Shown piece by piece: positions 23,209 to 41,955 of a DNA stretch of 51,669 bases. Numbering within the stretch: the first letter of the stretch is position 1; each line of letters opens with the position of its first letter. The position numbers and the translations under genes are program-made. This DNA comes from Gammaproteobacteria bacterium (GTDB lineage: Bacteria > Pseudomonadota > Gammaproteobacteria > Pseudomonadales > Pseudohongiellaceae). Where the stretch lies: NCBI GenBank assembly GCA_030832825.1, contig JAURIJ010000017.1, positions 1 to 51,669 of the forward strand, given 5' to 3'. The notes below the pieces were generated by a model that saw only the letters and a list, made by a program, of their open reading frames with translations, made no database searches and was not told the origin of the DNA.

Positions 23209-24576
23209 TCAGTCCTGCGGTTCCACCAGCCAGGTGCCGACGTCCAGCAGGTCCTCGGCACTCAGCGTGCCGGCGTCGCGCCGCAGCATCAGCGAATAAC
23301 GGATCAGATCGTAGCGGGCGCGCTGCAGATCGCGCTCGGCGCTGAAGCGATCGCGCAGGGCGTTGAGCACATCCACGCTGGTGACGGTGCCCAGTTCGAA
23401 GCCACGCTGGCGCGCCGTGTAGGACAGCGCGGTGGATTCCGCCAGGCGTTGGGCGGCCTGCACCCGCAGCTCCGCCGACTTCACCTGCAGATAAGCCATG
23501 CGCGTGCTTTCGACGATCTCCAGCGTTGTCTGGCGCAGTTCGTTTTCAGCGATACTGTGAAGGCTGCGGGCCTCGGCGACTTGTGCACGGTTGCTGCCTC
23601 CAGCAAACAGCGGAATCTGCACGTCGACGCCGATGTAGTCGGTTTCGGTGCGAGGGTTGCGGAAATTGTCATAGCCAAGATCGGAAATCTGCTTCTGTGC
23701 AATCAGCGTGACGCGCGGCATGTAAGCCCCTTGTCGCTGCGCGATGGCTTTGTCAGCGGCATCCACTGCAAATTCCCGTGCCCTGACCTGCGGATTGGAC
23801 TGGCTCGCCAGGGCAAGCCACGACTCCATGCTGCCTTGCGGTGCAGCAAGCTCCTGAGCAGGATCAAGCTGGAATAGCTCACCCACACCTACGCCCGTAA
23901 GGGCGCGGAGTTCTTCGCGCACCAAGGTCAGCTGGCTTTGCATATCCAATTGCTGGGACTGCGCGAAAGCGAGCCTTGCCTGAGAGTCGTAGAGGTCCGT
24001 GATCTGTACCTGCTGCAATTCATACAGCCGCTCGACCATGGCCGCCTGTCTGGCCACCGCCTCCACTTCAGCCGCCGCTGAGCGCAATGCGTCATGCGCC
24101 TGCAGGACGTTGAAGTACTTCTCGGCCACATCGGTCAGCAGCCCTGCCAGCGTCCCGTAGTACTCCGCTTCCGCCACGTCCTCGAGAATTGCCGCCTGTT
24201 TGCGCGCATTGAAGGCCTGCCAGTTGAACAGAATCTGGGTCAACTGCAGAGACGAGCGTTCACCGGGGTAGTTGGCGACATTGCCGAGGGACTCCTGCGT
24301 GTTGTCTGACCTGCTGGTATTGGCATTGAGCTGGGGCAGCAACTGCCCGGTCGCGGCTTTGCGCCGCTGGGTGCCTACCTGCCAGCGCGCTTTGGCGATA
24401 CGCAGCGACGGGCTGTAGTCGAGCGCGGCAGTGAAGAAGTCCTCGAGCGTGCTGCCCTGGATGATGACGGTGCTCATGCCGTTGCGTGACGATTCAGCAG
24501 CGTTCACGCTCTCCGTAGCAATGCTGATACCACAGATGAGCCCCAGGCCCAGAGTGCCGATCCAATTGAGTTTCAT
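23209..24576 (-). CDS. TolC-family outer membrane channel of the type I secretion system
   Basis: 455 residues from ATG 24576. N-terminal signal peptide (GLGLICGISIATESVNA), then two OEP repeats with long helices: RWQVGTQRRKAATGQLLPQL, and in the second half GAYMPRVTLIAQKQ and RQRGFELGTVTSVDVLNAL. Forms the trimeric outer membrane channel through which the substrate leaves. It lies five bases after the adaptor gene. Confidence 0.92.
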   Translation of the reverse strand: MKLNWIGTLGLGLICGISIATESVNAAESSRNGMSTVIIQGSTLEDFFTAALDYSPSLRIAKARWQVGTQRRKAATGQLLPQLNANTSRSDNTQESLGNVANYPGERSSLQLTQILFNWQAFNARKQAAILEDVAEAEYYGTLAGLLTDVAEKYFNVLQAHDALRSAAAEVEAVARQAAMVERLYELQQVQITDLYDSQARLAFAQSQQLDMQSQLTLVREELRALTGVGVGELFQLDPAQELAAPQGSMESWLALASQSNPQVRAREFAVDAADKAIAQRQGAYMPRVTLIAQKQISDLGYDNFRNPRTETDYIGVDVQIPLFAGGSNRAQVAEARSLHSIAENELRQTTLEIVESTRMAYLQVKSAELRVQAAQRLAESTALSYTARQRGFELGTVTSVDVLNALRDRFSAERDLQRARYDLIRYSLMLRRDAGTLSAEDLLDVGTWLVEPQD

Positions 24577-24581: not shown

Positions 24582-26003
24582 TCAGTCTTCGCGCAGGGCG
24601 CGTGCGAGGGCGTTGGAGAAAGGCTTCATGACATACTGCAGGAAAGTCCGTGAGCCCGACGCAATGAAAACTTCAGCTGGCATACCGGGTACCAGCGCCA
24701 GCTCGCCAAGTTGCTGCAACCCTTCCTCGGTCACTGCAACCCGGGCCAGGTAGAAGGGCATACCGGTGGTTTGATCTGCCATGGCATCGGCTGATACGCC
24801 CAGCACGGTGCCGAATATCGTCGGTACGCTGCTGCTGAAACTGGAGAACCGAATGGTCGCATGCTGGCCTGCCGCCACGCGATCGATGTCGGCGACGGAA
24901 ACACGGGCTTCAATGATCAATTCGTCGCTTTGCGGAACCACCTCCGCGATCGGGGCTCCAGGTCCAATCACTGCGCCTTCAGTGTGGTACTGCATGCCAG
25001 CCACGACGCCGCTGACCGGGGCGCGGATGACGGTGCGAGACAGAATGTCATCCAGTGCGATCATGCGCTCGCGAGCGTCCTTGAGTCGAGTCTGCGTCTC
25101 GCTGAGCATGGACGCCACCTCGGAATGCCACTCGTTCTGGATTTGAAGAATTTGCAACTGCGTCTCTCCGATCTGCATCTGCGTGGTGGAAATGGTGGCG
25201 ACAAGCTCCGCAGCCTCCCCCTGGTAGACGGCCAGATTGCGCTCCAGTTCGCGCAGACGCAGTTTGTCGGCGAAGCCTTCCTCCAGCAGCACGCGGACAT
25301 CGGCCAGTTCGGCGCCAAAGGACACCGACAATGCCTCTTTGCTTTGACGCATGGCCTCCAAGCCCACTAAGCGTGAACGCAGCTGCTCTATACGCTGCTC
25401 CAGCACCGCGCGACTGCCGTCCATGGTCGCTCTGCGTGTGGTGAAGACGTTGCGCTGCGCCTCGATCTCGGCCTGTGCGCTTACCCCCGAAGTTGACAGA
25501 CTCGCGGGAAATTGAATCTCTGCGGCGCCGTCGCGCTCCGCAAGCAGACGTGCTTCCAGTGCCGTCAGAGCGATCAGCTGGGCATTGTTGATTTCACGCT
25601 GGGCCTGGGCCTGCGTATCGTCAAGCACGAGCATCACCTCGTCAGCAGCCACGTGATCGCCATTCTGGACGCGAATTTCACGCACTATGCCCCCTTCCAG
25701 GTGTTGAATCAGTTTCTTGTAGGAGCGCACTGTGACGGCCCCGGGTGCATGGGCGGCCCCTTCGATCGGCGCGAGCGTCGACCATAGTCCGAACCCGCCA
25801 AACACGATCAGCAGCATCAAGGTGCCGATGCGTCGGGGGTGGTCGAGACTGGTTTCCAGCGCGCTGTCATACACGGGGCCGACCGCTTGCGCGGCTGTCT
25901 GCAGGGCGGGGAGATTCTCAGGATTGCGGGTGTTCTCTGTCACGTTCTCGGTCTCGCGTCCAATGTAGGAAAAGGGGTCAGGCCTGGGCAGCTTTGCGAG
26001 CAT
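24582..26003 (-). CDS. HlyD/PrtE-family type I secretion adaptor
   Basis: 473 residues from ATG 26003, overlapping the exporter gene by 26 bases; GTG 25943 would avoid the overlap. One membrane segment (about 58-78), then YKKLIQHLEGGIVREIRVQNGD quoted in part: LIQHLEGGIVREI, the lipoyl-type hairpin, a long coiled coil (150-330), and the beta-barrel part with TVIRAPVSGVVAGM and VPGMPAEVFIASGSRT. This is the PrtE/AprE subgroup pattern. It bridges the ABC exporter and TolC across the periplasm. Confidence 0.92.
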   Translation of the reverse strand: MLAKLPRPDPFSYIGRETENVTENTRNPENLPALQTAAQAVGPVYDSALETSLDHPRRIGTLMLLIVFGGFGLWSTLAPIEGAAHAPGAVTVRSYKKLIQHLEGGIVREIRVQNGDHVAADEVMLVLDDTQAQAQREINNAQLIALTALEARLLAERDGAAEIQFPASLSTSGVSAQAEIEAQRNVFTTRRATMDGSRAVLEQRIEQLRSRLVGLEAMRQSKEALSVSFGAELADVRVLLEEGFADKLRLRELERNLAVYQGEAAELVATISTTQMQIGETQLQILQIQNEWHSEVASMLSETQTRLKDARERMIALDDILSRTVIRAPVSGVVAGMQYHTEGAVIGPGAPIAEVVPQSDELIIEARVSVADIDRVAAGQHATIRFSSFSSSVPTIFGTVLGVSADAMADQTTGMPFYLARVAVTEEGLQQLGELALVPGMPAEVFIASGSRTFLQYVMKPFSNALARALRED

Positions 26004-27696
26004 CGGCCTGTGGCATCAAGGCAGCCAGTACCTGTTCTCGAGTGCCGATATTGACGGGAACCCCGTCCTTGAGCACCAGAATCTTGTCGACGACCATCAG
26101 CACCATCGTGCGGTGCGTGATGACGATGACCGTGCAGCCCTGCGCCTTGGCACGCTGGAGTGCGGCGACCAGTTCGCGTTCGCCCTGATCATCCAGGTTC
26201 GAATTCGGTTCATCCAGAATCAGCAGGCGAGGCTGACCGTAGAGCGCGCGCGCGAGTCCGATACGCTGGCGCTGTCCCCCGGACAGGATACCCCCGCTGC
26301 CGCCAATGGGGGTGTCATAGCCCTGTGGAAGGCGCAACACCAGTTCATGAACTCCGGCCATTTGCGCGGCAGACACAATTTTATCGGCATCGCGTTCGCC
26401 GAAGCGGCAGATGTTTTCAGCGATGGTCCCGTCGAACAGCTCGATGTCCTGGGGCAGATAACCGATGTGCGGGCCGAGCTTGAGCCGATCCCACGCGAAG
26501 ATGTCGGCCCCATCAAGGCGCACTTTCCCGCCACCTGTAGGCCAGAGTCCCAGCAGGGCACGTGCGAGGGTAGATTTGCCGGATGCGCTGGGCCCAATGA
26601 TGCCCAGCGATTCGCCCGCCTTGAGCTCGAAGGTCACGCCCTTGACCACTGGCGCTTTCGCGCCGGGCGGAGTGACAAAGATCTGCTCCACATACAGGTT
26701 GCCGTGCGGCGCCGGCAGCGACATGGTCTCTGCATCAAGCGGAACGCGCTCCAGCAACTGGCCGAGTCGATCGTACTGGGCACGTGCCAGCGAGAACCCT
26801 TTCCAGGTTCCAACCAGCATGTCAATCGGCGCCAGTGCTCGGCCGAGCAGCAGCGACCCCGCGATCATCATCCCTGGGGAGATGTCCTGACGCAGCGCCA
26901 ACAATGCTCCGAGGCCTAGAATCAAAGACTGCGTAATCACGCGGAAGGACTTGGACAGCGTGCTGAGAATTCCGGCCAGGCGACTGGCACTGGTTTGCAG
27001 CTGCAACACCTTGTCTGCACGAACCTGCTGCCGGCGGCGGATGTTCTCGAGCATTCCCATGGCCGAAATGACCTCGACATTGCGCATGCTGCCGTTGATC
27101 TGCCCGAGCACCCAGTTCGCTTCCGTGTTGGCATCCTTCAACTTGCTGGTGGTGACTTTTTCGGTAGTCCATGCCAGGCCGACCATGACGATGCCGGCGA
27201 CAATCGCGGTGATGCCAAACAGAGGATGAAAGAGGAACATCACGAGGACATAAATCGGGAACCATGGTGCATCGAAGAACGCAAAGAGGCCATTGCCTGT
27301 CATGAACTGGCGCAACTGTGACAAGTCGTTGCTTGGCTGCGAACCATTCGCTGCGCCTCCTGTGTAGAGCGACTGTTTGAACGAAGCATCGAAAACCCGG
27401 TCTCGCAGGTTCTGTTCAATCTTGTTGCCGGCACTGACCAGAATCATCGAGCGTACCCATTCGAAGCCACCGGAGGCGGACATCAGGAACACCATGATCA
27501 GCGTGAGCATCGCCAGCGTCGACTGACTGCCACTGGTGACCACGCGGTCATACACCAGCATCATGTACATGATTGGCACCAGCATCAGGATATTGATAGC
27601 GGCGCTGTAGATGCCTGCGAGGATGAAATATTGCCTGACGGCCTTGAAGCCCTCGCGCAATTCCGGGTAGGGGCTATTGTTCTTGGTCTGATTCAT
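25978..27696 (-). CDS. type I secretion ABC exporter, PrtD/AprD-like
   Basis: 572 residues. Membrane domain 20-300 with FFDAPWFPIYVLVMFLFHP, then ATPase: Walker A GPSASGKST (368-376), signature LSGGQ (471-475), Walker B LLILDEP (491-497) and a final switch ITHR. There is no N-terminal peptidase-like domain, which matches the PrtD/RsaD type that exports C-terminal-signal RTX and S-layer proteins. Likely substrates are the RTX proteins at 33813 and 43784. In Caulobacter, RsaD/E/F export the S-layer protein RsaA in the same way. Confidence 0.93.
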   Translation of the reverse strand: MNQTKNNSPYPELREGFKAVRQYFILAGIYSAAINILMLVPIMYMMLVYDRVVTSGSQSTLAMLTLIMVFLMSASGGFEWVRSMILVSAGNKIEQNLRDRVFDASFKQSLYTGGAANGSQPSNDLSQLRQFMTGNGLFAFFDAPWFPIYVLVMFLFHPLFGITAIVAGIVMVGLAWTTEKVTTSKLKDANTEANWVLGQINGSMRNVEVISAMGMLENIRRRQQVRADKVLQLQTSASRLAGILSTLSKSFRVITQSLILGLGALLALRQDISPGMMIAGSLLLGRALAPIDMLVGTWKGFSLARAQYDRLGQLLERVPLDAETMSLPAPHGNLYVEQIFVTPPGAKAPVVKGVTFELKAGESLGIIGPSASGKSTLARALLGLWPTGGGKVRLDGADIFAWDRLKLGPHIGYLPQDIELFDGTIAENICRFGERDADKIVSAAQMAGVHELVLRLPQGYDTPIGGSGGILSGGQRQRIGLARALYGQPRLLILDEPNSNLDDQGERELVAALQRAKAQGCTVIVITHRTMVLMVVDKILVLKDGVPVNIGTREQVLAALMPQADARKAAQA

Positions 27697-27817: not shown

Positions 27818-28507
27818 TCACAGGGATTGGCCGCCCTGAGCCAACTCGCGCAAAGCGCGCGGGTCGCTGATCTGCAGTGTGCCTGCGCCATCGCGTCTGA
27901 CGATCTGACGAGTCTGCAAGGCCTGGAAAACCCGCGTCACTGTCTCGCGGCTCAGGTTCAGCATGATCGCGATTTCCATGTGTGTCGGTGGGTTCTGAAT
28001 GACCACGGGCTCCGCTTGTGCATCCCTGACCAGCATCCACAATTGGCAACATACACGCTGGCCGATGTCGGGCAATCCCAGCAGCGAGCGCTGTCGTGTC
28101 AACTGCCGCAGCCGGAATGCCAGCCGCTCTGTCATGACTCGAAACAGATGCGGATGAGTCAGCATGATTGCGCGCAGACTCGCCATCGGTACCATCACAG
28201 TCACCACGGCGGTGAGAGCGATTACGAATTCAGGTTGGGGGCCATTGTCAAACATTCCCACCTCTCCGCAGAAATCGCCCGGCTCCACGAAGTACAGACC
28301 CACTTCACGACCGTCAATGGTGAAATCGACGCCCTGCAGTCTTCCCTCGAAAAGGAAACACACGCAGTCCTCGTGCACCCCTGCGTTCATGACAACTCCG
28401 CGACGCGCGAACTTGCGCATGCTGGTGAGCGCGGCCAACTGAGTAAGAATCTCGTAAGGCAAAGGCTTGAGGACAGGAAAAGTGCTTAACAGCTCTGGGG
28501 TTACCAC
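27818..28507 (-). CDS. Crp/Fnr-family transcription regulator
   Basis: 229 residues from GTG 28507; no clear ribosome site. Cyclic-nucleotide-binding fold 10-125, long dimer helix 130-145, winged helix with recognition helix LSRETVTRVFQAL (S186-R192). SRETVxR is identical to E. coli CRP at the DNA-contacting residues, so it should bind TGTGA-N6-TCACA. The phosphate cassette GEVGMF (81-86) keeps the Gly-Glu, but the CRP Arg-Ser pair that holds the cAMP phosphate is replaced by PEFV (92-95). No FNR-type cysteine cluster. It sits between two operons that both carry such sites or follow it. Confidence 0.9.
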   Translation of the reverse strand: MVTPELLSTFPVLKPLPYEILTQLAALTSMRKFARRGVVMNAGVHEDCVCFLFEGRLQGVDFTIDGREVGLYFVEPGDFCGEVGMFDNGPQPEFVIALTAVVTVMVPMASLRAIMLTHPHLFRVMTERLAFRLRQLTRQRSLLGLPDIGQRVCCQLWMLVRDAQAEPVVIQNPPTHMEIAIMLNLSRETVTRVFQALQTRQIVRRDGAGTLQISDPRALRELAQGGQSL

Positions 28508-28700
28508 GGTTGTTGTAAAGTCCCTGATGGCTGGTTTCAGCGGTGCCGGGGCATTATAGGAGCTTGACCCTCAATAGCAAACGCCGGGAAATATCATCGG
28601 TGTGACTCGGGTCACATGACTTGCAATTGGCATGGATTATCTTGCAACGCAGTCAAAGAGTGCCAGTAATCCGATCTCGGAATCTGGCTGGGAAACCGCC
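28508..28700. promoter_or_regulatory. crp-like / fecR divergent intergenic region
   Basis: 193 bases between divergent genes. It holds the CRP-type site at 28601-28616 and a -10-like hexamer at 28638-28643 facing fecR. The mirrored position towards the regulator gene has only a poor hexamer. Confidence 0.7.
28601..28616 (+). promoter_or_regulatory. CRP-type operator before the fecR operon (class II geometry)
   Basis: TGTGACTCGGGTCACA, a full match to TGTGA-N6-TCACA with a sixth symmetric base on each side. TATCTT at 28638-28643 would be the -10 element, giving a start at 28650 and placing the site centre at -41.5, the class II CRP position. This favours GTG 28701 over ATG 28632 as the fecR start. 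Confidence 0.82.
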
Positions 28701-30077
28701 GTGAAGACCTTCCTTCAATCGCTCGTCATTGCGACATCGCTCTGCCTCTCAGGCACCGCTGCTCTTGCGCAGGAAGCCGCACCAGCGGGCATCGTGAGCC
28801 TGGTGCTCGGCAAGGCCTGGCTGCATTCTGCTGGCAGCGCGCGGCAGCCCCTTCACGCAGGTGCCGTGGTGCGTGTTAGTGACCGCATTTCTACAGAATC
28901 TAACGGTCATGTGCATATTCGGTTTATCGACGATGCGTTGCTCAGCGTGCGGCCCGACAGCGAGCTCGAGGTTCAGCGCTACGATTTTGACCGCGATGAT
29001 CCGGCCAGCGTGTCCATTAAACTCAACTTGGTGGAAGGTGTGACACGCAGTATTTCCGGCGAGGGCGCCCACGTGGCACGGGAACGTTTCCGTCTGAACA
29101 CGCCCATCGCAGCCATCGGCGTGCGGGGTACGGATTTCGCAGTCAGTGCCACTGAGGGGTCGGTGCGTGCGCTGGTGAACGAGGGAGCTATCGTCGTGGC
29201 CCCGTTCTCCCGCGACTGTCTTGTTGATACCTTCGGGCCTTGCTCCGCCAATGCCGTGGAGCTGTCGCAGAGCAATGTGCAGATGGTGGCAATCGATCGC
29301 TCGCAGCCCTTGCCGCGCCTGCTCCCGGCTACGGACGAGCGCGGTGCGTTGAACGGGGACCTGGTGGCTGCCGGCAACGAACGTGTCGATGCCGGGGACA
29401 AGGCCACGGGAACAGAAGTCTACCTGGAAACGGTCACCTCCCGCCGGGTCACGGATGTGGCGAATAACGTGGTTGCTTCGCCGGTGCTGCGTCCGCAGAC
29501 GCCGATGACTCCTCCTGCGATAAAGCCTGTCGATTTCACGCCCGCAGCCTCGCTGGCAACGACGGAGGTGCTCGCGCGCAATCTGGTCTGGGGGCGCTGG
29601 GATGGCCGTGACGACATGGGTGCCCAGGAGCGGCTTACGCAGACCTATGCCCAGGCGAGTACAGGGCGGGACATCACCGTGGGTAATGACAATTACGGGC
29701 TATTCCGCGACGGTAAGGGCAGCACGCAGATCAAGCCAGAGCATGCCGTCGTCAGTTTCGCCCTGCAGAGTGCGCAGGCTTTCTATCACTCAAGCTCTGG
29801 CGTGCTGGCGCTGCAGGTCAATGGTGGCAGCCTGCGCATTGACTTCAATGAGCGTCGCTTCGCCACCGAGCTCGGCCTCAGCCATGCCAGCACCGGCGTC
29901 ATCCTGTTTACTGCTGCTGGCCGCATTTTCGACGCCGGCAATTTCTACGACAATTCTGACACCCAAGCGATGGCTGGTGCCGTCAGTCTGACGGGCTCGG
30001 AGGCCGGCTATTTCTTCGAAAAGCAATTGGATGCCGGTGCAAGCTTGAAGGGCCTGACCCTCTGGGATGCGCAGTAA
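28701..30077 (+). CDS. secreted FecR-domain protein
   Basis: 458 residues from GTG 28701, which gives a proper signal peptide (MKTFLQSLVIATSLCLSG, cleavage near ALAQ). ATG 28632 lies upstream of the predicted transcription start. FecR domain about 30-170: GKAWLHSAGSARQPLHAGAVV, DALLSVRPDSELEVQRYDFD, FRLNTPIAAIGVRGTDFAV. The rest (250-458) is of unknown fold. Unlike FecR anti-sigma regulators there is no internal membrane helix and no sigma-factor gene nearby. It is coupled by TAATG to the cyclase, suggesting a periplasmic partner or sensor for it (inference). Confidence 0.85.
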   Translation: MKTFLQSLVIATSLCLSGTAALAQEAAPAGIVSLVLGKAWLHSAGSARQPLHAGAVVRVSDRISTESNGHVHIRFIDDALLSVRPDSELEVQRYDFDRDDPASVSIKLNLVEGVTRSISGEGAHVARERFRLNTPIAAIGVRGTDFAVSATEGSVRALVNEGAIVVAPFSRDCLVDTFGPCSANAVELSQSNVQMVAIDRSQPLPRLLPATDERGALNGDLVAAGNERVDAGDKATGTEVYLETVTSRRVTDVANNVVASPVLRPQTPMTPPAIKPVDFTPAASLATTEVLARNLVWGRWDGRDDMGAQERLTQTYAQASTGRDITVGNDNYGLFRDGKGSTQIKPEHAVVSFALQSAQAFYHSSSGVLALQVNGGSLRIDFNERRFATELGLSHASTGVILFTAAGRIFDAGNFYDNSDTQAMAGAVSLTGSEAGYFFEKQLDAGASLKGLTLWDAQ

Positions 30078-32080
30078 TGTCGGCAACGCGCCCCGCAGTC
30101 CTCCATCAGAATCGTGCCATCAGGTACCTGCTCGGCTTGCCGCCTGCCAAAGCGCGACTCTTGCTCCTGGCGATGGCGGGGCTTGTGACGAATGCCCTGC
30201 TCACGCTGTTTTCCCCCGCATTGACGACGCTGGAAGAGAATCTGGGGGCGCTGGGCTGGACGCTTCGCCCTGACCTCAACGCCGAGCAGCGCATCACCAT
30301 CGTTGCTATCGACGAGAAGAGCATTGCACAGGAAGGCCCATGGCCTTGGCGCAGGGAGACCATGGCGCGGCTGGTCACGGCGCTGACCTCCGCCGGCGTG
30401 CAGCTGCAGCTTCACGATATTGTGTATCCCGAGCCTCAGGCAGGTGATGAGCAGTTCCTGTCTGCCCTGCAATCCGCTCCCGGCGTCGTGCTTGCCCAGG
30501 TGCCCGTGCTGCAGCCTGGCCAGGACGTGCGAACGGGCGTCATGACACACCCTCTAACGGGGATCGCCTGCGATGAAGGACTGCCTGTGGCGTCTGGGTA
30601 CGTCGCTAATGCAAGCACATTCGCATCGATTGCTACAGGGCATATCGCGCCGATCGTCGCTGCCGATGGTGCCATTCGAGAGGTCGCGGCCGCTGTATGT
30701 CTTGACGGTGTAGCGTATCCTGCACTGCCTGTCAGTGCCTTCCTGCAGGCCATCAAGTCACCCACCTGGGGTGCATCCGTAGAGCAGGTCACTGGCTGGT
30801 TCGGCCCCGCCCGGCAGATGACGCTGAACGCCTATCCTGGCCTGCGTATTCCTCTGGATCGCAATGGCAGCTTGCGAATCTCTTATCGCAGCGCGCCGGA
30901 AGCCTATCAAGCGGTATCGGCTGCCGATGTGCTCAATGGCAGTGTTGATCTGTCGATGTTGGCAAACACTTGGGTTTTGGTGGGTGCAACTGCCTTCGGC
31001 ATCGGGGATATCGTTCCCACTCCCTACAGTGGCGCCACGCCTGGCGTGGAATTGCAGGCGCGCATGATGAGCAGTCTTCTTGACGCCGATGTGCCATACA
31101 CGCCGCGAGTGGCGCCATGGTTGCTGGCCGGTGTCTGCCTGGTATTCGCCGGCGTGCTATTTCTTCTGGCCAGCTACCGCGAACGTTTCGCAGGCGCTGG
31201 GCTCCCCCTCGCTGGGCTCATCCTGCCAGTGCTGGCGCTGGCGTTGCATATTCAATGGCTCGCCTCCGGCAACGTGTGGCTGGGGTGGGTAGCCCCAGCG
31301 CTCTACGGTCTTGCAGGCGCAAGTCTGCTTATGCTGCTGGAGCAGGCGCGCGTGCGGCATGAGCGCAGCAGGGTGTTCAGCCACCTGAACAGCTACCTGC
31401 CGGCGGATGTGGCCCATGAAATCGCCTTTAGTCTTCCCAGCTCAAATGTGAATGCACGACGTAGTGATGTCACTCTGCTAAGTGCAGATCTACGCAATTT
31501 TTCAGCTTTCAGTGAGGCGCGGCCGCCGGAAGAGTCTGCAGCACTACTTCATTTTTTCTTTGTTCGTGCCGCTGAAATTGTCGAGGCCCATGGTGGGCGC
31601 ATACATGAATTCAAAGGGGATGCGCTGCTCGCCGTCTGGGATGGCCACGGCGAGGCTCCGGGCTTGAAGGCGTTGCGCGCGGCGCAGCAGATGCAGGCGC
31701 TGATCGAGGGCGAGATGCTGCCCCAACATCCGCCGGCTGGTCTCGAACCCCTCGCTATTGGCATCGGCATCGAGCAAGGGCCGGTGCTGATCGGCTCCAT
31801 CGGGCCTGCGCATCGACGAACGCACACCATGTTGGGTGACACAGTCACCATTACTTTGAGGATCCAGGAGATGACCGCCGAGTTGGCGCAGCCAATCCTG
31901 CTGGGCGAGTGTGTTGCGAGGCAACTGACTGGCGAGAAGTTGGATTCCCAGGGTAGCTACCTCCTGTCAGGACTGCGCAATCCCCACGTGTTGTTCGCTC
32001 CTTTTCTCATTCCGGTTACCGGGCGTCGTCAGCGTACGGATGCCGTCCCGCTGTCGGTCATCACCGGCGGTCGTCGCTGA
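30077..32080 (+). CDS. CHASE2-domain class III adenylate/guanylate cyclase
   Basis: 667 residues from ATG 30077. N-terminal membrane helix (28-48), periplasmic CHASE2 domain (about 55-335: TIVAIDEKSIAQEGPWPWRR; WVLVGATAFGIGDIVPTP), three membrane helices (about 343-425), then a cytoplasmic cyclase domain. The metal-binding Asp residues are D471 (LSADLRNF) and D515 (FKGDALLAVW); the Lys of FKGD and Asp of LGDTV suit ATP. The usual transition-state Asn is Thr (T591 in GDTVTITLR), while Arg 595 is kept, so activity may be low or altered. Likely makes cAMP on an envelope signal; a Crp-family gene is next door. Confidence 0.92.
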   Translation: MSATRPAVLHQNRAIRYLLGLPPAKARLLLLAMAGLVTNALLTLFSPALTTLEENLGALGWTLRPDLNAEQRITIVAIDEKSIAQEGPWPWRRETMARLVTALTSAGVQLQLHDIVYPEPQAGDEQFLSALQSAPGVVLAQVPVLQPGQDVRTGVMTHPLTGIACDEGLPVASGYVANASTFASIATGHIAPIVAADGAIREVAAAVCLDGVAYPALPVSAFLQAIKSPTWGASVEQVTGWFGPARQMTLNAYPGLRIPLDRNGSLRISYRSAPEAYQAVSAADVLNGSVDLSMLANTWVLVGATAFGIGDIVPTPYSGATPGVELQARMMSSLLDADVPYTPRVAPWLLAGVCLVFAGVLFLLASYRERFAGAGLPLAGLILPVLALALHIQWLASGNVWLGWVAPALYGLAGASLLMLLEQARVRHERSRVFSHLNSYLPADVAHEIAFSLPSSNVNARRSDVTLLSADLRNFSAFSEARPPEESAALLHFFFVRAAEIVEAHGGRIHEFKGDALLAVWDGHGEAPGLKALRAAQQMQALIEGEMLPQHPPAGLEPLAIGIGIEQGPVLIGSIGPAHRRTHTMLGDTVTITLRIQEMTAELAQPILLGECVARQLTGEKLDSQGSYLLSGLRNPHVLFAPFLIPVTGRRQRTDAVPLSVITGGRR

Positions 32081-32199
32081 GCGTCGTGCCCCGATTCCGC
32101 TGGTTGCCAGCCTTCCTCAGCTTCACGATAATCCGCGACATTTCCACACGCCGACATCGGCTCAGTCTGGTCTGTTACGATCTCCGATATCGAGGCTCT

Positions 32200-33507
32200 A
32201 TGCGCAAGACAGTCTCTGCGCTCATATTCCTGTTGTCCTCCTCGGCGCAAGCCTGTCCGAATCTGAGTGCCTTTTATCTGGCTGAGCAAAGCCCGGCGTC
32301 CCAGTCAGCGCTGGCAGCGCAGCTGGCTCCCCTCATGTCGCAATGTCTGCAGAGCGCAGAGTTCTTTGCCCTTATTGGCGCGGCGCAGATGGAGTCAGGC
32401 GACCTGACGACAGCGCTGGAGTCGCTCGAGCGCGCCTTGTTGCTGGACCCAGGCAACGGCGCTGCGCAGATTGACTATGCCCAGGCCTTGTATCTGCAAG
32501 GACAATTGTTCTCGGCCCTGGATCTGAATCGACAGATTCTGGCCCGAACCGACCTGCCCCCGGAGATTGAAGCACTAGTGCGTCAGCGTGATCAGCTCTG
32601 GCAGGCAAGCACTCGACAAACGGGGTTCCAGCTGGATGCACTGGTGGGCTATGACGACAACCTCAACGGAGCGCCGGACCCTTCTCAGATAACACTCACG
32701 CTCTCCGGCGAGCCGATCATCCTCGCGCTCAATCCTGAATTTCAGGCAATCGGCGGGCGTTACCTAAATCTGCGTGGCGGTGCGACCCACCAACAGCTTG
32801 GCGCCGGGCATCGGCACAATGCCAGCGTGGACGTAAGAGGCCGTCTAAGCCAGGACAGTGGCTCCGATCTATTGCAATTGCAAAGCCGTTACGAATTTCT
32901 TCGGCCTCGACGCAACAGCAGCTGGCTGGCCAGTATTGCTGCCGGCCAATTGTTTTTTGGAGGCAATGCTCTTTACGCCGCGTCCGAGGCACTGTTTCGC
33001 TATAGTCAGCCTTTCGGCCAGGCCTGCGGGCGTCGCTTCGACCTCACCTTGCAACATCAGCATTTCCACGGACAGCGCAATCTGAATTCCCTGGAGGCAA
33101 GACTGGCGGCAGGTCTCGAATGTCAGGTGGAGCTCGCAGGAATACCCTCTGTGCTCGATCTGGAGTTCGGTCTATTGTCGAATACCGCGCTGAGCAGTGG
33201 TCGACCGGGCGGGCATCGTCGTGGATGGCAGGTGAACGCCGACTGGCAATGGCCTGTGTCACGGGGCCTTGTTCGCAGTCAGATGAACTACACGCGGCTG
33301 CAGGATCAGACTGGGTACAGTCCTTTGCTTGCCAATGGAGTCGACCGCTGGCTGGAGCGCAGCTACCTTTTGATGCAGTACCAGCGGCCAGTGCAACCGG
33401 GCATGACCTTCTTGGCCAGCTTCTATCATCAGTATCAGCGCAGCAATATTGCGCTGTTCGACACCCTCGACAGTTCCCTCGAATTCGGGCTTAGCTTCGC
33501 CTTTTGA
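32200..33507 (+). CDS. TPR and beta-barrel outer membrane protein (SlipAM-like)
   Basis: 435 residues from ATG 32200 behind GAGG; this start gives a signal peptide (MRKTVSALIFLLSSSAQA). Residues 50-125 are TPR-like (SGDLTTALESLERALLLDPG, LYLQGQLFSALDLNRQIL). From about 145 alternating strands form a barrel that ends in LEFGLSFAF, the C-terminal Phe needed for barrel insertion. This resembles the surface lipoprotein assembly modifier family. It may help surface placement or anchoring of the secreted layer protein (inference). Confidence 0.75.
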   Translation: MRKTVSALIFLLSSSAQACPNLSAFYLAEQSPASQSALAAQLAPLMSQCLQSAEFFALIGAAQMESGDLTTALESLERALLLDPGNGAAQIDYAQALYLQGQLFSALDLNRQILARTDLPPEIEALVRQRDQLWQASTRQTGFQLDALVGYDDNLNGAPDPSQITLTLSGEPIILALNPEFQAIGGRYLNLRGGATHQQLGAGHRHNASVDVRGRLSQDSGSDLLQLQSRYEFLRPRRNSSWLASIAAGQLFFGGNALYAASEALFRYSQPFGQACGRRFDLTLQHQHFHGQRNLNSLEARLAAGLECQVELAGIPSVLDLEFGLLSNTALSSGRPGGHRRGWQVNADWQWPVSRGLVRSQMNYTRLQDQTGYSPLLANGVDRWLERSYLLMQYQRPVQPGMTFLASFYHQYQRSNIALFDTLDSSLEFGLSFAF

Positions 33508-33812
33508 AAAAGCCACATAATTCTTAGAAAATAAACGCTTACAAATAAGACTTAAATCAAGAAAGAGGTTGTCTTGGCTGCTGCCTCCAAGTAATATCGG
33601 CGAGCGTGTCCGCTTGTGGCCGGTTTTTGCGCTGGCGACCAAGTGGGTTTATCTCGGGTAAGCACGTTCATTTCAGTCTTTGTGATTGTCGTCACACCGG
33701 CCTGGAGTCGAGTTGCGTATCCTTGGAACAACCGAATGGGGTCATCCGTCAGTTTGCTCTGGCGAGTCACAATCGGAAAAAACAATTTGGATCCAATCAA
33801 GGAGCTTTACAA
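33508..33812 (+). promoter_or_regulatory. upstream region of the S-layer-like gene
   Basis: 305 bases without a gene. AT-rich at 33508-33560, then a CRP-type site at 33681-33696, a -10-like hexamer TATCCT at 33718-33723, a leader of about 83 bases and the ribosome site AAGGAG at 33799-33804. Confidence 0.7.
33681..33696 (+). promoter_or_regulatory. CRP-type operator before the S-layer-like gene (class II geometry)
   Basis: TGTGATTGTCGTCACA, a full match to TGTGA-N6-TCACA. TATCCT at 33718-33723 puts the start at 33730 and the site centre at -41.5. Distance from centre to -10 (29.5 bp) is identical to that of the site before fecR. Confidence 0.82.
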
Positions 33813-36800
33813 ATGGCGATTACCGTCGAACAACGTACCGCGATTATTGAACTGGTAGTGGGCATGTTTGGTGCCGCACCAGGTGCCAGTGTCCTGTCAG
33901 ATCTGGTGGCTGCATATGAAGCAGGCAGTTCCCTCAAGCAGATCGCAGCGAACCTGGCAAAGAGTGATCAATTCAAGAGCATCTTCCCGACATTCATGAC
34001 CAGTGGCGAGTTCGCCACCAAGGTGGTTGATCAGCTCGTCGGCTCCTCAGTCGTCGCTGCTGAAAAAACCGCTGCTGTCGCTTTGCTGACCGCCCAGCTG
34101 AACTCCGGCAAGTCACGTTCTGACGTGTTCGTCGATGCCATTTCCGCGTTGAATGCGGTGGCCTCTACCAATGCTGCATGGGGCAATGCCGCCGTTGCGT
34201 TCGACAACAAAGTGGCCGCAGCCGTGTACTACTCTGTCGACAAGCAGCTGAGTGGTTCCTCACTGGCCGCCCTGCAGGCAGTGGTTTCCAGCGTTACCAA
34301 CAGCACAGCAAGCCTGGATGCCGCTAAAGCGGCCGCTGATGCTGCTGCAGCGCCGGCACCAGCGCCGTCGCAGACTTTCACGCTGACTGCAAATCTGGAT
34401 GACGTCAAGGGTGGCGCGGCAAATGATAAGTTCACTGGTCTTCTGAGCGCTACTCCCGCGAATATCACTTTGAATGCTCTGGACGTCATCGATGGTGGTG
34501 ATGGAAACGATACTCTCACCATTCTGGATGAAAGCGGTAACATAGCAGTCCCTGGAGTCCTCACTATGTCAGGGGTCGAAACAGTAAATGTCCGCTCCGC
34601 TGGCACTGCGAACATTGATCTGACTGGTGCGGGCATCTCGGGTGTAACCACACTCAACTCTACCCAGTCCGTTGCTGCAACCTTGACTGCCGCTGCTACC
34701 ACCAATGTAAATGTTTCTGGCGCGACTGGTGCCATTACGATTAATGGTGGTGCTGATATTACCGTCTCAGCAGCAACCGCAGCACAGGCGGTGACCATTG
34801 GCGCTAATACCGTTGGTGCTGGAGCGGTGAATATCACTCACACCAATCAAACCACCGGTGCTATTGCAGTTGACGGTGGCGCCAAGGTGACTGTAGTTGC
34901 CGGTGGTGCGACTACCGGTACGGTAACTGTGGGCCAGGGCGGCGCACCCGCTGACCTGCCGACCGGTGCTGTATCCGTAACTTCGACCGGTGGTGCCTAC
35001 GCGGCAGCGACTGCTGTCACCTTGGGTGGTATCACCATCTCCGGCGGCAGCACTGTTACCGTCGCCCAGACCGCAGCTTCTGCATCAACAGAAGCAGCAG
35101 CCGATGGCGCAGCCGCCAACCGTACTCAGAGCGCCGTGTCCGTTACTGGCACATCCGCTACCACTGAAGTTTCTGTGAGCCAGTCTGCTCCAGTAACGGC
35201 CGTCAACGCCGTAGCTGCCGCAACCGGCGTTCGCGAAGCACAGAGCGTGACCTTCACAGCACTGGCTGCAACCGAGACCGCCGAGGTCAACGGCCTGACC
35301 TTCACGGCAGTCAAAGCACTGACCGCCAATGAAGTGGCCGCTGCATTCGCCAACCTGACGGCTGGCGCTACCCACGGTTCGTCGCCTGCTACCAATGGAA
35401 TCTACAGCGGTACCTTCAACAATGCGCTGGCCAACGGTGCACTTATGACCTCTGGTGCAGCAAATGGCGCCACGGTTACCTTCACCGAAGGCACTGCCAG
35501 CACTGTAGCCTTCACGCTGCCGACTGATAACGATGGTGCTGGCGCAGGTGCTCCTGTTGCCGTGACCACCGGTGTTACCGCCGTTACCGCCGTGACCGGC
35601 GTCATGGGCGTGGTTGGCGGCGCGATTACCGTCAATGGCGCAATCGCTGGTACCGACGTTCTGAAGACCGTCTCACTGACCGGCTTTGGTGCTGGCTCCA
35701 CGGTTTCCTCCGACGCGCTGACTGCCCTTACGCTGGCATCCAGCAGAGAAGATGTGACAGTGACCAACGCTGCTGCCAGCACGCTGGATCTGACGCTGAA
35801 CGCTGCCGGGATCTCCACCAACACCGCAGCTGCAAACCTTGGCGGTACCTACAAGACCTTGAACATCAAGACCACCGGTACCGCTTCGGACATCGACATC
35901 ACTGCCGGTGGCGTTGAAACTCTGACCGTGTCGGGTACCGTAGTTGCCGACCTGAATACGCCGACGATGGGCGCCCTGAAAACAATCACCGTCAGCGGCT
36001 CTGCCGGCCTGTCGGGCAACGTTTCCGGTATTGCTTCCGTTACCTCCGTTGACGCTTCGGCGACTTCTGGTGCTGTTACTGTGACGATCGATACTGCCAC
36101 TGCTGCATACAAAGGCGGCACCGGTGTAGATACCGTTACGCTGAACACCGTGACAATCACCAAAGACGTTTCCCTGGGTGCAGGCGACGATACGCTGACG
36201 CTGGCCACTGGTACCGGTGTACCAACTGGTGCGCTGGCTGGCGGCGACGGCACTGACACATTGTCGATGGTAGCAGCTGATGCAGAAACTCTTTCGGCAG
36301 GCGCTGCATTTGAAGCCAAGTTCTCCGGCTTCGAGAAGATTCGTGTAGGTGCAGTTGCAGCTACGCAAAACGACACGATTGACCTGTCCAACTTGAATGA
36401 CATCAGCTATGTCATTTCGGCTGGTATTGCTACCAATGCGTCCAATAACCAGTTGATCGTCAACAAGATGGCAAATGGCGGTACGCTTGAAATCGTTGGC
36501 GCAGCCGATGCTAGCGATATCTTTGACATCAATCTGACCGATGCAACCGGCACTGCTGACAGCCTGAACGTTGTCACCAAGGTTTCCACGGCCAGCTTGA
36601 ACTTCGGTACGCTGGATCTGGCCGGCATTGAGTCGGTAGCAATCACTGCAACGGACACCAACACCAGCACCATCACTGGTGGCGGCGTCAACACGGCGAC
36701 CTTCGTCGTGAAAGATGCTGCGCTGAAGACCGCAACGGTGACTGGTAGCTCGCACCTGACGCTGACGCTGGATGCAGCCACCACTGCTCTGACGTCGCTG

Positions 36801-37355
36801 AATGCCTCGACGCTGACCGGTAACCTGACCACCACGACCAACGGCACGGTTGCACAGACCGTAACCGGCGGCTCGGGTGCAGACGTACTGACGGCCAAAG
36901 GTGTAAACGACGTACTGATCGGCGGTGCCGGTAACGATACACTGGCACTGACTGGTACTACGGCCAACCTGGTAACGCTGACTGGCGGCGCCGGTGCCGA
37001 TATCTTCCAGATTGGTGTTGCAACCGTTAACGTCAACAGCTATGCGACGATCACGGATCTGGCCGCTGGTGACAGAATCCAGTTCTCCGCTGGTGCTGCC
37101 ACCTTCGCCAGCGCCAAGGTATCGCTGGGTGACACCGCAGTGTTCCAGGACTACGCCAACGCTGCAATCGCCGCAACCGATACTGGTGCGGTAACGTGGT
37201 TCCAAATCGGTGGCAACAGCTACGTCGTGGAAAACGTCAGCAACAACGCCTCGACCTTCGTGAATGGTACTGACATCATCGTCAGGATCATGGGCGCAGT
37301 AGACCTGAGCACCGCATCGTTCAGCGCATCGTCTGACACGTTGCTCATTGCCTAA
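33813..37355 (+). CDS. RTX/S-layer-like surface protein, type I secretion substrate
   Basis: 1180 residues from ATG 33813, eight bases after AAGGAG. Residues 1-170 are helical and resemble the N-terminal domain of RTX-type S-layer proteins (DUF4214-like: TAIIELVVGMFG, SVLSDLVAAYEAGSSLKQIA). An Ala/Pro linker follows (about 175-187), then some 800 residues rich in Thr/Ala/Gly/Val with no Cys. Calcium-binding nonapeptides are GGDGNDTL (about 230) and, near the end, GGSGADVL, GGAGNDTL and GGAGADIF (about 1020-1065). There is no signal peptide; the C-terminal tail should carry the secretion signal. A CRP-type promoter and a strong terminator frame the gene. Confidence 0.85.
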   Translation: MAITVEQRTAIIELVVGMFGAAPGASVLSDLVAAYEAGSSLKQIAANLAKSDQFKSIFPTFMTSGEFATKVVDQLVGSSVVAAEKTAAVALLTAQLNSGKSRSDVFVDAISALNAVASTNAAWGNAAVAFDNKVAAAVYYSVDKQLSGSSLAALQAVVSSVTNSTASLDAAKAAADAAAAPAPAPSQTFTLTANLDDVKGGAANDKFTGLLSATPANITLNALDVIDGGDGNDTLTILDESGNIAVPGVLTMSGVETVNVRSAGTANIDLTGAGISGVTTLNSTQSVAATLTAAATTNVNVSGATGAITINGGADITVSAATAAQAVTIGANTVGAGAVNITHTNQTTGAIAVDGGAKVTVVAGGATTGTVTVGQGGAPADLPTGAVSVTSTGGAYAAATAVTLGGITISGGSTVTVAQTAASASTEAAADGAAANRTQSAVSVTGTSATTEVSVSQSAPVTAVNAVAAATGVREAQSVTFTALAATETAEVNGLTFTAVKALTANEVAAAFANLTAGATHGSSPATNGIYSGTFNNALANGALMTSGAANGATVTFTEGTASTVAFTLPTDNDGAGAGAPVAVTTGVTAVTAVTGVMGVVGGAITVNGAIAGTDVLKTVSLTGFGAGSTVSSDALTALTLASSREDVTVTNAAASTLDLTLNAAGISTNTAAANLGGTYKTLNIKTTGTASDIDITAGGVETLTVSGTVVADLNTPTMGALKTITVSGSAGLSGNVSGIASVTSVDASATSGAVTVTIDTATAAYKGGTGVDTVTLNTVTITKDVSLGAGDDTLTLATGTGVPTGALAGGDGTDTLSMVAADAETLSAGAAFEAKFSGFEKIRVGAVAATQNDTIDLSNLNDISYVISAGIATNASNNQLIVNKMANGGTLEIVGAADASDIFDINLTDATGTADSLNVVTKVSTASLNFGTLDLAGIESVAITATDTNTSTITGGGVNTATFVVKDAALKTATVTGSSHLTLTLDAATTALTSLNASTLTGNLTTTTNGTVAQTVTGGSGADVLTAKGVNDVLIGGAGNDTLALTGTTANLVTLTGGAGADIFQIGVATVNVNSYATITDLAAGDRIQFSAGAATFASAKVSLGDTAVFQDYANAAIAATDTGAVTWFQIGGNSYVVENVSNNASTFVNGTDIIVRIMGAVDLSTASFSASSDTLLIA

Positions 37356-38079: not shown

Positions 38080-40401
38080 TTATCCAGCTTTACTGAATAT
38101 TGATGAATCTGTAGTCGCGGCCCGTCCTATTCCGTTGTACTGCCGCAGGCTGCCCTTCCATCCCTGTACGATACCCCTGCTGAGCAATCTCCGAGTGAAC
38201 GACTTCTTGCTCCCCTCGCGGATACCGTTGTTGTTACACCAGCTGCGCCAGTTGTCCCAGAGTAGCTGCTGCGGGATCTGTGCTTGAGGGTCTAAGGTGT
38301 ATTCTTCCAAAAATTCCCCCAGCAAATCACACTCACTTCTGTAACCTGCGCTGGCGGCCTCAATTTTTGCCGTTGGTTTTAGACCCTCGGCTTGCCAGCG
38401 TAAACAACCATCTACAGCCCATCGCAATATCCCCTCAGCCTCCTGCACAAGCGCAGCCTCAAGTCCTGCATCTGCGTCTTTTGCTTCCAGTTGCAGTTCG
38501 AAAGGAATAAGCCTGATTCGTCGCCAGGCGCCCTCAGTCTCATCCGTGATCAGGGGTTTGTGATTCCCTCTGATAAGAATTTTGTGGGTCGGCCAAAAAT
38601 CAAAAAATTCCTTGTAGAGAAAACGTGCGCTTATCCGCTCGGTGGACACCAAGGTTTTGAGCATCAGGTCGTCAAACGCCTGACCATTGCGGGTTTCATT
38701 CGCCATCAGCAGACGCACACCGACCAAGCGCGCAACCTCGTTACCAACACCCTGACGGTCTTTGCGCATCAGCAGTTCGGGCTGTGCGGTGAGAGCATAC
38801 TCCCCCCAAATCCGGGTGAGCACATTTGCGAAAACCGACTTGCCATTTCGGCCGACACCGTACAAAAAGTGCAGAACCTCCTCCGACACGATGCCCGTCA
38901 GTAGATAGCCGCACATAAGCTGCAGATAGTCGGCAAGGTGCGGATCATGAAGGGTTATCTGATCGATGAACTGCTCCCATCGCGGACACACTGCACCCGG
39001 GTCGAACCTTAATGTGACACTTTTTGTGATCAACTGCTCTGGCGCGGCGGTCACCAGCTTGCCAGTTCTCAAGTCCAAAACACCATTGAGGCAGCCGAGC
39101 AGCATAGGGTCCGCATCCAGAGCACTTAGTTCACCGATGTGCATCCCGGGCTCTGAGGCAGCACAGGTAATCATCGCTTGGAGCTTCTTTAGATTAAACG
39201 CATCTTGCGCCTGCGCCACCGCTCGCTTAGCGTCTTGGCTGGTAGGTTCCGATTTAAACGCCGTGTTCGCATCATCGAGCAACTTTTCTGCTGTTACCTT
39301 CGCTGCCTGTAGCGCAACTGACTCATCACACCAACGCCACCTTGTCGTTTGCCATTCCAGCCAACGACCTGCCGCATAGACAAACATTAACTTGCCGCGG
39401 AAAAGCTCTGCAAATTTGCGCCCATTCCTGGTGTCTCCAAAAACGTGCTTGCTCTCTACTGATGAGAATTGGCGCGCGATGTAGTACAGCGTTCGGGCAC
39501 TGATTTCTTGCACCTCACAGCGCCAAACGGCATCAAACGCAGACTCCTCGTACCCGAACGGATTGTTTTGCTTGTCATAGTGCCCCGCAGACTGTGACCA
39601 ATCTCGCGCTTTCTTCTCACCGCACGAAAACCCGTGGGCTTTGATGGAAAGCAGCACTTTGACCCATGTTGCTCGCTCGATTGCGGGTGGGATCATCGCA
39701 AGGGCTTCGTCGAGTGCGCTAATGGATGCTGTATCTTCTGGCGGAGTTGATTTTCCGTCGCCGAAATAATTCGCACCGAAGTTTGAGGCTGGTTTTTGCT
39801 TACCATGCGGAGCCCCGAACATTTGTAGATTCAGTGCGTTCATTTCCACGTCGCTGAATTCCCGGATCTCGCCCTGCCCCTCGCCAGTCACGGTCAGGAA
39901 TCGGCCACTGCTGTAGATTTCGTGGGGGGATTGATTTTTTCCTGCGATCTTTTCTTTGTAGTAGAAGAAAATGCGTACACCGGTCCCAGATGGGCTTATC
40001 TCCCAGTACGAGTTGCACAGCTGAACAACTGCCTGGGCATCTGGGTTAAGAATAGGAGCAGAGTGAGGTGAGTAATGCTCCACGCACTCGTCAATATCGA
40101 CACCGATAAGAAAAAGCGGATGCGAGTAACCTGGCGGAACGAAAGACTTGCCGGTGAGGTCAATGGCAATTCCGGAGTGGAACCGAGGATTAAATGTCCT
40201 TACTACATCCTCGTAGCTAAGCCAATTACGTGAATCGTGTGCGTTTACCGGGAAGCCGGCAACGTTCACCGGCACTTTATTGAAACGTCCGCCTGGTTTG
40301 TGTTGATTCGCTACCCAGTGAACACAAGATGTCGACATCTTGATGAACTCAGGCATTTTCGCATCGTTGAATTGAACAGGTGCTGCGATAACTGTTTCCA
40401 T
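38080..40401 (-). CDS. primase-polymerase/helicase of a phage satellite or plasmid-like element
   Basis: 773 residues from ATG 40401, which has AGGAG at the right distance; the frame extends to 40542 but without a ribosome site. N-terminal AEP-type primase: GVDIDEC with D102 and D104, and SGTGVR (138-143). Residues about 240-310 resemble a primase C-terminal helical domain (IPPAIERATWVKVLLSI). The last part is a D5/DUF5906-type SF3 helicase with Walker A GVGRNGKS (about 513-520) and LLMANETR. Such fused primase-helicases start replication of integrative elements and satellites. Confidence 0.88.
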   Translation of the reverse strand: METVIAAPVQFNDAKMPEFIKMSTSCVHWVANQHKPGGRFNKVPVNVAGFPVNAHDSRNWLSYEDVVRTFNPRFHSGIAIDLTGKSFVPPGYSHPLFLIGVDIDECVEHYSPHSAPILNPDAQAVVQLCNSYWEISPSGTGVRIFFYYKEKIAGKNQSPHEIYSSGRFLTVTGEGQGEIREFSDVEMNALNLQMFGAPHGKQKPASNFGANYFGDGKSTPPEDTASISALDEALAMIPPAIERATWVKVLLSIKAHGFSCGEKKARDWSQSAGHYDKQNNPFGYEESAFDAVWRCEVQEISARTLYYIARQFSSVESKHVFGDTRNGRKFAELFRGKLMFVYAAGRWLEWQTTRWRWCDESVALQAAKVTAEKLLDDANTAFKSEPTSQDAKRAVAQAQDAFNLKKLQAMITCAASEPGMHIGELSALDADPMLLGCLNGVLDLRTGKLVTAAPEQLITKSVTLRFDPGAVCPRWEQFIDQITLHDPHLADYLQLMCGYLLTGIVSEEVLHFLYGVGRNGKSVFANVLTRIWGEYALTAQPELLMRKDRQGVGNEVARLVGVRLLMANETRNGQAFDDLMLKTLVSTERISARFLYKEFFDFWPTHKILIRGNHKPLITDETEGAWRRIRLIPFELQLEAKDADAGLEAALVQEAEGILRWAVDGCLRWQAEGLKPTAKIEAASAGYRSECDLLGEFLEEYTLDPQAQIPQQLLWDNWRSWCNNNGIREGSKKSFTRRLLSRGIVQGWKGSLRQYNGIGRAATTDSSIFSKAG

Positions 40402-41156: not shown

Positions 41157-41328
41157 CGTTTGTCCGCTTTACTATGTAATACAGGCAGGGACGTTAACTG
41201 TACAAAGGGGGGGGTACCCCCCGGGTGGGGTGCGTGGAGTCGTAATTTGAAACGTCTAGCCCCACCCCCCCTCCGCTTCGGCCAATAACGTGTTGTTGGT
41301 GATGTAGCTTATATGCTACTGTTCCCGC
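41157..41328. promoter_or_regulatory. toxin-antitoxin promoter region with palindromes
   Basis: Divergent from the HGG gene. GTAGC-TTATAT-GCTAC (41304-41319), ten bases before the toxin ATG, is a probable operator for autorepression. A 14-bp palindrome GGGGGGTACCCCCC lies at 41209-41222. Confidence 0.5.
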
Positions 41329-41942: not shown

Positions 41943-41955
41943 GTCAGGCCTTTCA

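Follow-up and report, generated by a model that had tools for sequence, protein, structure and literature searches.

The stretch of DNA analyzed here, referred to as the window, comprises all 51,669 nucleotides of contig JAURIJ010000017.1 (GenBank assembly GCA_030832825.1) from a gammaproteobacterium of the family Pseudohongiellaceae, and it holds a gene for a Crp-like regulator set between type I secretion genes and an operon that is followed by a surface-layer (S-layer) gene. On the minus strand lie genes for a TolC-type channel, an HlyD-type adaptor, a PrtD-type ATP-binding cassette (ABC) transporter, and the regulator; divergently from these run genes for a FecR-domain protein, a CHASE2 cyclase, a TPR and β-barrel protein, and the S-layer protein. 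An earlier note on this DNA proposed that two CRP-type promoters of identical geometry tie the cyclase operon and the S-layer gene into one regulon, in which the product of the cyclase raises both. Our analysis favors, with a probability of roughly 0.72, a conserved and locus-encoded class II-type Crp regulon in which the local protein activates the fecR-cyclase-barrel operon and the S-layer gene, the latter being of the RsaA type.

Both palindromes are exact. The first, TGTGACTCGGGTCACA at 28601..28616 (assigned to neither strand), is the predicted Crp-type operator of the fecR operon and also lies upstream of the regulator gene; the second, TGTGATTGTCGTCACA at 33681..33696 (likewise unstranded), is the predicted operator of the S-layer gene. 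On the plus strand, a -10-like TATCTT (28638..28643) precedes a predicted start near 28650 for the fecR operon, and a -10-like TATCCT (33718..33723) precedes one near 33730 for the S-layer gene, with 29.5 bp from the palindrome center to the first base of the hexamer in both cases; these coordinates and this spacing are as the earlier note had given them. When a -10 element starts at -12, this distance puts the center at -41.5, the class II position. The exact form TGTGA-N6-TCACA occurs twice in the window as compared to an expected 0.04 (two or more in 0 of 100 shuffles), and the source genome (2.70 Mb, 90.9% complete) holds four exact palindromes, two of which are the window sites (reversed-pattern control, 0). 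With up to two mismatches allowed, 13 palindromes are found in the window where 23.4 are expected, i.e., there is no excess, and the exact form alone is therefore remarkable. The composite pattern TGTGAY-N4-RTCAC-N22-TANNNT is matched without mismatch at both sites. A chance origin of the paired sites was ruled out by the shuffles and by the fixed -10 distance across promoters; the strongest evidence against chance is the conservation of the sites across related loci.

Conservation and specificity of the paired sites

We searched 115 genomes, the source genome included, for orthologues of the regulator, found them in 53, and retrieved the 52 other loci. The order regulator-fecR-cyclase-barrel was the same in every locus of this first set that was long enough to show it. 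An S-layer N-terminus was detected after the barrel gene in 32 of the 53; among the remaining loci, some contigs stop too early and others (e.g., L083, L087, and L088) show no S-layer N-terminus at that place. The fecR-side palindrome was exact in two loci (the window and its nearest relative), had one mismatch, at the last base, in 50, and had two mismatches in one, and the S-layer palindrome was exact in all 32 loci with a detectable S-layer N-terminus. Named genomes were scanned for a further set, the best 80 of 97 relatives being kept; 48 of the 80 had a regulator gene already encountered and 32 were new, L206, L208, and L215 among the latter being near copies as judged by their sites. All 32 new loci carried the fecR-side site with one mismatch, for a pooled figure of 85 of 85 loci with at most two mismatches, and an exact site lay near the S-layer gene in 18 of the 20 new loci with an S-layer match. 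The motif scan of related genomes that the earlier note had put forward as a check thus recovered the same sites. Pseudohongiella, Terasakiispira, Oceanospirillum sediminis, and Marinomonas are among the named-genome records within these best 80 that carry the locus.

The position of the -10 is held as well. Among non-redundant promoters, TANNNT begins 29.5 bp from the palindrome center in 76 of 82 on the fecR side (the next-best offset reaching 13 of 82) and in 41 of 47 on the S-layer side, which bears out the class II position that had been claimed; the 47 S-layer promoters were chosen by their exact palindromes and so are all exact by construction, the unbiased figures for exactness being the 32/32 and 18/20 above. 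Where the S-layer gene has been relocated (L200, L230, and L231), the exact site and its -10 have travelled along. The two palindromes differ at their last base: only 2 of the 82 non-redundant fecR-side sites end in A, the other 80 having C, G, or T there, whereas A closes the S-layer site in all 32 of 32. One reading of this asymmetry would be that the operon with the sensor has the slightly weaker site. Two public records of metagenome-assembled genomes, titled Klebsiella pneumoniae (L138) and Rhodoferax sp. (L155), carry a Pseudohongiella-like locus, and for this reason their titles are probably wrong.

Across 74 family genomes, the composite pattern was matched 95 times, as compared to 6 times for the reversed pattern. 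By position, 85 of the 95 sit at a fecR or S-layer promoter, relocated S-layer genes included. Most of these 85 are on the regulator's contig and two belong to relocated S-layer genes (L230 and L231); when five promoter matches on other contigs were checked, four showed the target gene, and L234 ends after the barrel gene. The other 10 comprise six before a family of exported proteins, one before a FecR-domain gene (G048), and three (G035, G027:C3, and G006:C1) without a common theme. The search for regulator orthologues found no local Crp in 18 of the family genomes, and of these G035 alone matches the composite pattern. With its -10, the site occurs almost exclusively at the fecR and S-layer promoters; the palindrome by itself is less specific and is not restricted to genomes with the local protein.

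The exported-protein family (∼240 amino acids), whose genes lie beside a rimK-like gene, is preceded by this third class II-type site in 6 of the 14 genomes of the genus (L221–L223 and L225–L227, unlinked to the window; the source genome's own copy is at G000:C41:4456), and the one member scanned had no Pfam match. At L228 (G048:C1:13713) the composite site lies upstream of the gene for a second protein, of 1234 amino acids, part of which is FecR-like (31% over 166 positions). In L122 and L133–L136, an exact CRP-type palindrome lies in the interval that separates a cbrB-like gene for a response regulator from a pcnB-like gene; in Pseudomonas, this interval encodes the small RNA CrcZ.

The regulator and the genes around it

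The regulator (27818..28507, minus strand; 229 amino acids, GTG start) joins a cyclic nucleotide-binding fold domain (PF00027, 49.6 bits; cut-off 27.5) to a Crp-type winged helix-turn-helix (PF13545, 52.3 bits; cut-off 27), the combination that defines the Crp-Fnr superfamily, and scores 73.2 bits against NF008732, the equivalog model for CRP (cyclic AMP [cAMP] receptor protein), for which the cut-off is 266. Its AlphaFold2 model (predicted local distance difference test [pLDDT] 92.5) has a normal Crp fold and resembles CRP and Clr structures (TMq 0.80 to Clr 7pzb). Arg-Glu-x-x-x-Arg is the recognition helix for TGTGA, and R187, E188, and R192, which align with R180, E181, and R185 of CRP, are invariant in 53 of 53 regulators, in line with the CRP-type recognition helix that the earlier note had read in this protein.

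At E 1e-25, NF008732 found no match in G024, G039, G051, G055, G066, and G069 (99, 100, 97, 73, 97, and 96% complete, respectively), and its matches did not exceed 78 bits in OX638341 (G115) and OX638323 (G116), both chromosome records, in Terasakiispira papahanaumokuakeensis PH27A (G119), and in a Marinomonas metagenome-assembled genome (G121). With a canonical CRP from a relative as the query, nine such genomes (G055 not being among them) gave at most 72 bits, where positive controls gave 452 and 363 bits, and the local protein was the sole match at E 0.001 in G115, G116, G051, G066, and G069. All nine genomes without a canonical CRP found keep composite sites, each at the regulator locus or at the S-layer gene by position. 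One missing CRP could be an assembly gap, several of these being draft or metagenome genomes, but nine gaps together are unlikely. The sites persist where no canonical CRP is detectable, and R187, E188, and R192 do not vary; for both reasons, the probable binder of the two sites is the local Crp-like protein. This is also the assignment that had been proposed, and the near confinement of the composite site to the two promoters is in keeping with it. The source genome's own canonical CRP-like gene (G000:C48:76995-77519, L002) carries a frameshift and, within the recognition helix, an in-frame TGA, damage that may be true decay or a draft-assembly error; in the nearest relative (G005), the canonical CRP gene has no stops.

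The Arg and Ser of the phosphate-binding cassette are R82 and S83 in E. coli CRP, and Arg-Ser is present in the canonical CRPs of 20 loci of related genomes. The regulator lacks this pair, having P92 (51 of 53) and E93 (53 of 53) at the positions aligned to R95 and S96 of Clr. Other pocket residues are retained (G81 in 53, E82 in 51, R132 in 49, and T137 in 50 of 53). The protein alignments were built on 33, 52, and 41 chosen members. In Clr, the cyclic phosphate and sugar are held by G85, E86, R95, and S96 (PMC10127613). The regulator has G81, E82, P92, and E93, respectively, aligned to these four. Since Arg/Ser is replaced by P92/E93 and the score against the CRP model is so far from its cut-off, the regulator is unlikely to bind cAMP in the usual manner, and the conservation of P92-E93 points either to another ligand or to an intrinsically active state.

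The regulator's own predicted promoter, read from the minus strand, consists of a -10 TATAAT (28553..28558) and a -35 TTGCTA (28575-28580) with a spacer of 16. Of 82 non-redundant loci, 36 have the center of the fecR-side palindrome at -62.5 from the predicted start of this promoter, near the class I position, and 51 have it somewhere from -59.5 to -63.5. Because the palindrome lies at about -62 in many lineages, the regulator probably controls itself.

The FecR-domain protein (28701..30077, plus strand; PF04773, E 1e-12) has a GTG start and what reads as a signal-like N-terminus; an upstream ATG at 28632 overlaps the fecR -10. The next gene (30077..32080, plus strand) encodes a CHASE2 sensor with a class III cyclase (PF05226, E 7.9e-45; PF00211, E 1.3e-9), confirming that the operon encodes a cyclase as the earlier note had it. 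The product is a predicted guanylyl cyclase: the two metal-binding Asp (D471 and D515) and the base-specifying Glu (E511) are present in 43 of 43 members and in 64 of 64 of an overlapping set, and cyclic GMP (cGMP) would be a likelier product than cAMP because Glu stands where adenylate cyclases have Lys. At the second substrate position, 35 of 42 and 40 of 64 have Thr and most others Val or Ala; in the transition-state pair, Arg is present in 41 of 42 and Asn is mostly replaced by Thr (36 of 42). Thr and Ala at the second substrate position occur in guanylyl cyclases, and Ma1120 is an active cyclase with Ala at the transition-state Asn position (PMC4215837). The best solved match, 2w01 (E 4.2e-23), is named adenylate cyclase by its depositors and is Cya2, a CHASE2 guanylyl cyclase whose E488K form makes cAMP (PMC5995499). 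The last gene of the operon (32200..33507, plus strand) encodes a TPR and β-barrel protein (TPR_19), probably of the outer membrane, whose AlphaFold2 model (mean pLDDT 92.8) shows helical repeats and then long strands. Foldseek returned BcsC and porins with low TM-scores, and we read the protein as TPR plus barrel only. A Slam-type TPR-barrel translocator was considered and rejected: of 41 members, 5 matched TPR_Slam (best E 0.015), and the 18 families listed included no Slam barrel model; the likeness to Slam is one of TPR and barrel layout only.

The S-layer protein (33813..37355, plus strand; 1180 amino acids) matches S-layer protein chains in the PDB, namely 6p5t (E 8.7e-41, residues 599–1174) and RsaA itself (5n97, E 1.3e-40), so the surface-layer label that the gene had been given is right. 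RsaA homology and an adjacent type I secretion system together make it RsaA-type; its N-terminal 180 amino acids gave no Pfam family above cut-off. The secretion genes, all on the minus strand, encode a PrtD-type ABC transporter (25978..27696; TIGR01842, 726.6 bits, cut-off 510.15), an HlyD-type adaptor (24582..26003; TIGR01843, 359.6 bits, cut-off 208.65), and a TolC-type outer-membrane channel (23209..24576; TIGR01844, 237.2 bits, cut-off 225.15). No operator was found before them in the window, where the best stretch has three mismatches. In six loci (L053 and L055–L059), the gene for the secretion ABC transporter has an exact palindrome upstream of it, at the regulator gene's 3′ end, which suggests that the secretion genes have joined the regulon in that subclade.

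The 5′ leader of the S-layer mRNA, from the predicted start to the start codon (33730..33812, plus strand), is conserved in sequence in 23 aligned leaders, on which RNAalifold kept four pairs. The window's leader folds no better than its shuffles (z -0.64; 53 of 200 at least as good), and a search for a closing stem found it in 29 of 48 leaders as compared to a shuffled mean of 21.25 and maximum of 30 (200 rounds). The arms of this stem vary in step (CCGAT/ATCGG, ACGAT/ATCGT, and TCGAT/ATCGA), so a conserved leader structure is suggestive, though not above shuffles. Rfam gave no match at E up to 1 for 28400-34000. Beyond the S-layer gene, 38080-43158 encodes a protein with a D5-like domain and an integrase of phage type and is likely an integrated element, and 43784-48493 encodes a 1569-amino acid protein with nine RTX stretches, likely a second type I secretion substrate. 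Plasmid carriage was considered and rejected, the one record in question covering ∼1% of the query.

Proposed regulon and competing readings

What the sequences show are the sites, the constant spacing to a -10 element, the conservation of both, and the survival of the sites in genomes where no canonical CRP was found; that the local protein is the one that binds, that it activates and does not repress, and where transcription starts are inferred. The Crp-like protein would bind TGTGAY-N4-RTCAC(A) sites and, bound from -41.5, would activate both the fecR-cyclase-barrel operon and the S-layer gene; it would also control its own gene via the fecR-side palindrome. It would not be switched by cAMP through the usual pocket, being either ligand-independent or sensitive to something else in a rebuilt pocket, and the CHASE2 cyclase of the operon would make cGMP. 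The earlier idea of one regulon thus stands insofar as both promoters share conserved class II-type sites, and falls short in that a cyclase product raising both is unsupported.

Several observations weigh against this scheme. The S-layer site of L171 has one mismatch and L205 has no site near its S-layer gene, and TANNNT lies elsewhere than at +29.5 in 6 of 82 fecR and 6 of 47 S-layer promoters. In the 6.6 Mb of G054, where no local Crp was found, TGTGAY-N4-RTCACA occurs eight times in exact form and the reversed control once; extra copies of the palindrome also lie elsewhere in several genomes with the module. The recognition helix of the canonical CRPs, as seen in 20 loci of related genomes, is similar, namely SREM(A/V)GR, and because of this likeness cross-binding is possible where both proteins exist. 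The loss of cyclic-nucleotide binding is argued solely from residues. Finally, the distance to the regulator's own promoter differs between lineages, so self-regulation is likely rather than certain.

We consider it unlikely that cAMP or cGMP from the cyclase binds the local protein and raises both promoters in a positive feedback. The conserved order of regulator, FecR, and CHASE2 cyclase would suit such a loop, as would the retained G81, E82, R132, and T137 of the pocket, and there is a precedent in Sinorhizobium meliloti, where clr, cyaD1, and a FecR-domain gene are neighbors and Clr is cAMP-dependent (PMC5498481), binds both cAMP and cGMP (PMC10127613), and has a box of the same frame. However, R95/S96 of Clr are replaced by P92/E93, and the conserved Glu would be expected to repel phosphate. 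The inducer role given to the cyclase product in the earlier note is thus unsupported, given P92/E93, the low score against the CRP model, and the guanylyl-type Glu, and for cAMP it is partly contradicted by residues.

It is quite improbable that the local protein instead represses both promoters, its site covering the -35 region. A site overlapping that region would suit either sign, and the regulator's own promoter looks strong, so that the protein could be always present; however, a repressor would need no fixed distance, whereas 76 of 82 fecR and 41 of 47 S-layer promoters keep the same spacing exactly, and the promoter consensus has no conserved -35 hexamer besides the site. The weakest reading, in which global CRP with cAMP activates both promoters and the local protein has another role, could draw on identical half-sites, on a canonical CRP above cut-off in 62 of the 72 genomes of one scan and 18 of the 25 of another, and on the CRP-like helix in the 20 loci inspected, but it is very improbable, and canonical CRP as the main binder was rejected, given that the sites are kept in nine genomes where none was found, that the source genome's CRP gene reads as broken (possibly an assembly error), and that composite sites occur in 1 of 18 family genomes without the local Crp.

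Activation by the local protein could tentatively be taken further. A Crp-type activator that keeps the CRP DNA code and class II geometry with a rebuilt nucleotide pocket might serve as a dedicated S-layer switch beside an operon that makes cGMP through a CHASE2, FecR, and outer-membrane sensor, and might sense cGMP in a new way or a non-nucleotide cue; if so, coat synthesis would be tied to envelope status. To our knowledge, the control of S-layer synthesis in Gram-negative bacteria is poorly known, and the two-promoter regulon of fixed architecture conserved in Pseudohongiella-like genomes, whose hosts are mostly aquatic bacteria, offers a defined regulator, operators, and targets. The isolate Terasakiispira, in which no canonical CRP was found, would allow the local regulator to be studied without interference, and the locus is a natural test of what a Crp protein senses after loss of the phosphate-binding Arg and Ser.

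Comparison with known systems

Class II promoters of E. coli CRP, and likewise Pseudomonas Vfr, use TGTGA-N6-TCACA at -41.5, with R180, E181, and R185 in CRP. The local system has this site, this position, and equivalents of these residues in common with them and differs in that its regulator has few targets, lacks the phosphate Arg/Ser, and falls far below the cut-off of the CRP model. RsaA is the S-layer protein of Caulobacter and is exported by type I secretion; the S-layer protein here shares its homology over residues 599–1174 and the adjacent PrtD-type secretion genes, but its N-terminal 180 amino acids are without a Pfam family above cut-off. Within the open-access papers searched, the listings gave no report of Crp-type control of rsaA, and we found none of an S-layer system built like this one under a Crp-type regulator.

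The cyclase shares the CHASE2 sensor and base-specifying Glu with Synechocystis Cya2, in which the second substrate position is Gly (PMC5995499, PMC4215837), whereas here it is mostly Thr, and Thr mostly replaces the transition-state Asn as well. A cluster of the Campylobacterota groups genes for a CHASE2 cyclase, a phosphodiesterase, FecR, and TPR proteins (PMC9239204); the cyclase, FecR-domain protein, and TPR protein are also found here, and what sets the present locus apart from that cluster and its phosphodiesterase is a Crp-like regulator, an S-layer gene, and a barrel to which the TPR part is fused.

A close parallel in gene arrangement is the Clr/CyaD1 circuit of S. meliloti, in which clr, cyaD1 (a CHASE2 cyclase), and the FecR-domain gene SMc02177 have consecutive locus tags and Clr activates the neighboring smc02178 under cAMP (PMC5498481). 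The available excerpts on that circuit mention no S-layer or type I secretion gene (PMC5498481, PMC10127613), both of which are present here; Clr uses R95 and S96 for cAMP and cGMP, which the local regulator lacks, and the cyclase here looks like a guanylyl cyclase. Both systems nonetheless place a Crp-family regulator beside a CHASE2 cyclase and a FecR-domain protein, and the Clr consensus box, GTNNCNNNNGNNAC (PMC10127613), is compatible in frame with the GTGAY-N4-RTCAC of this locus.

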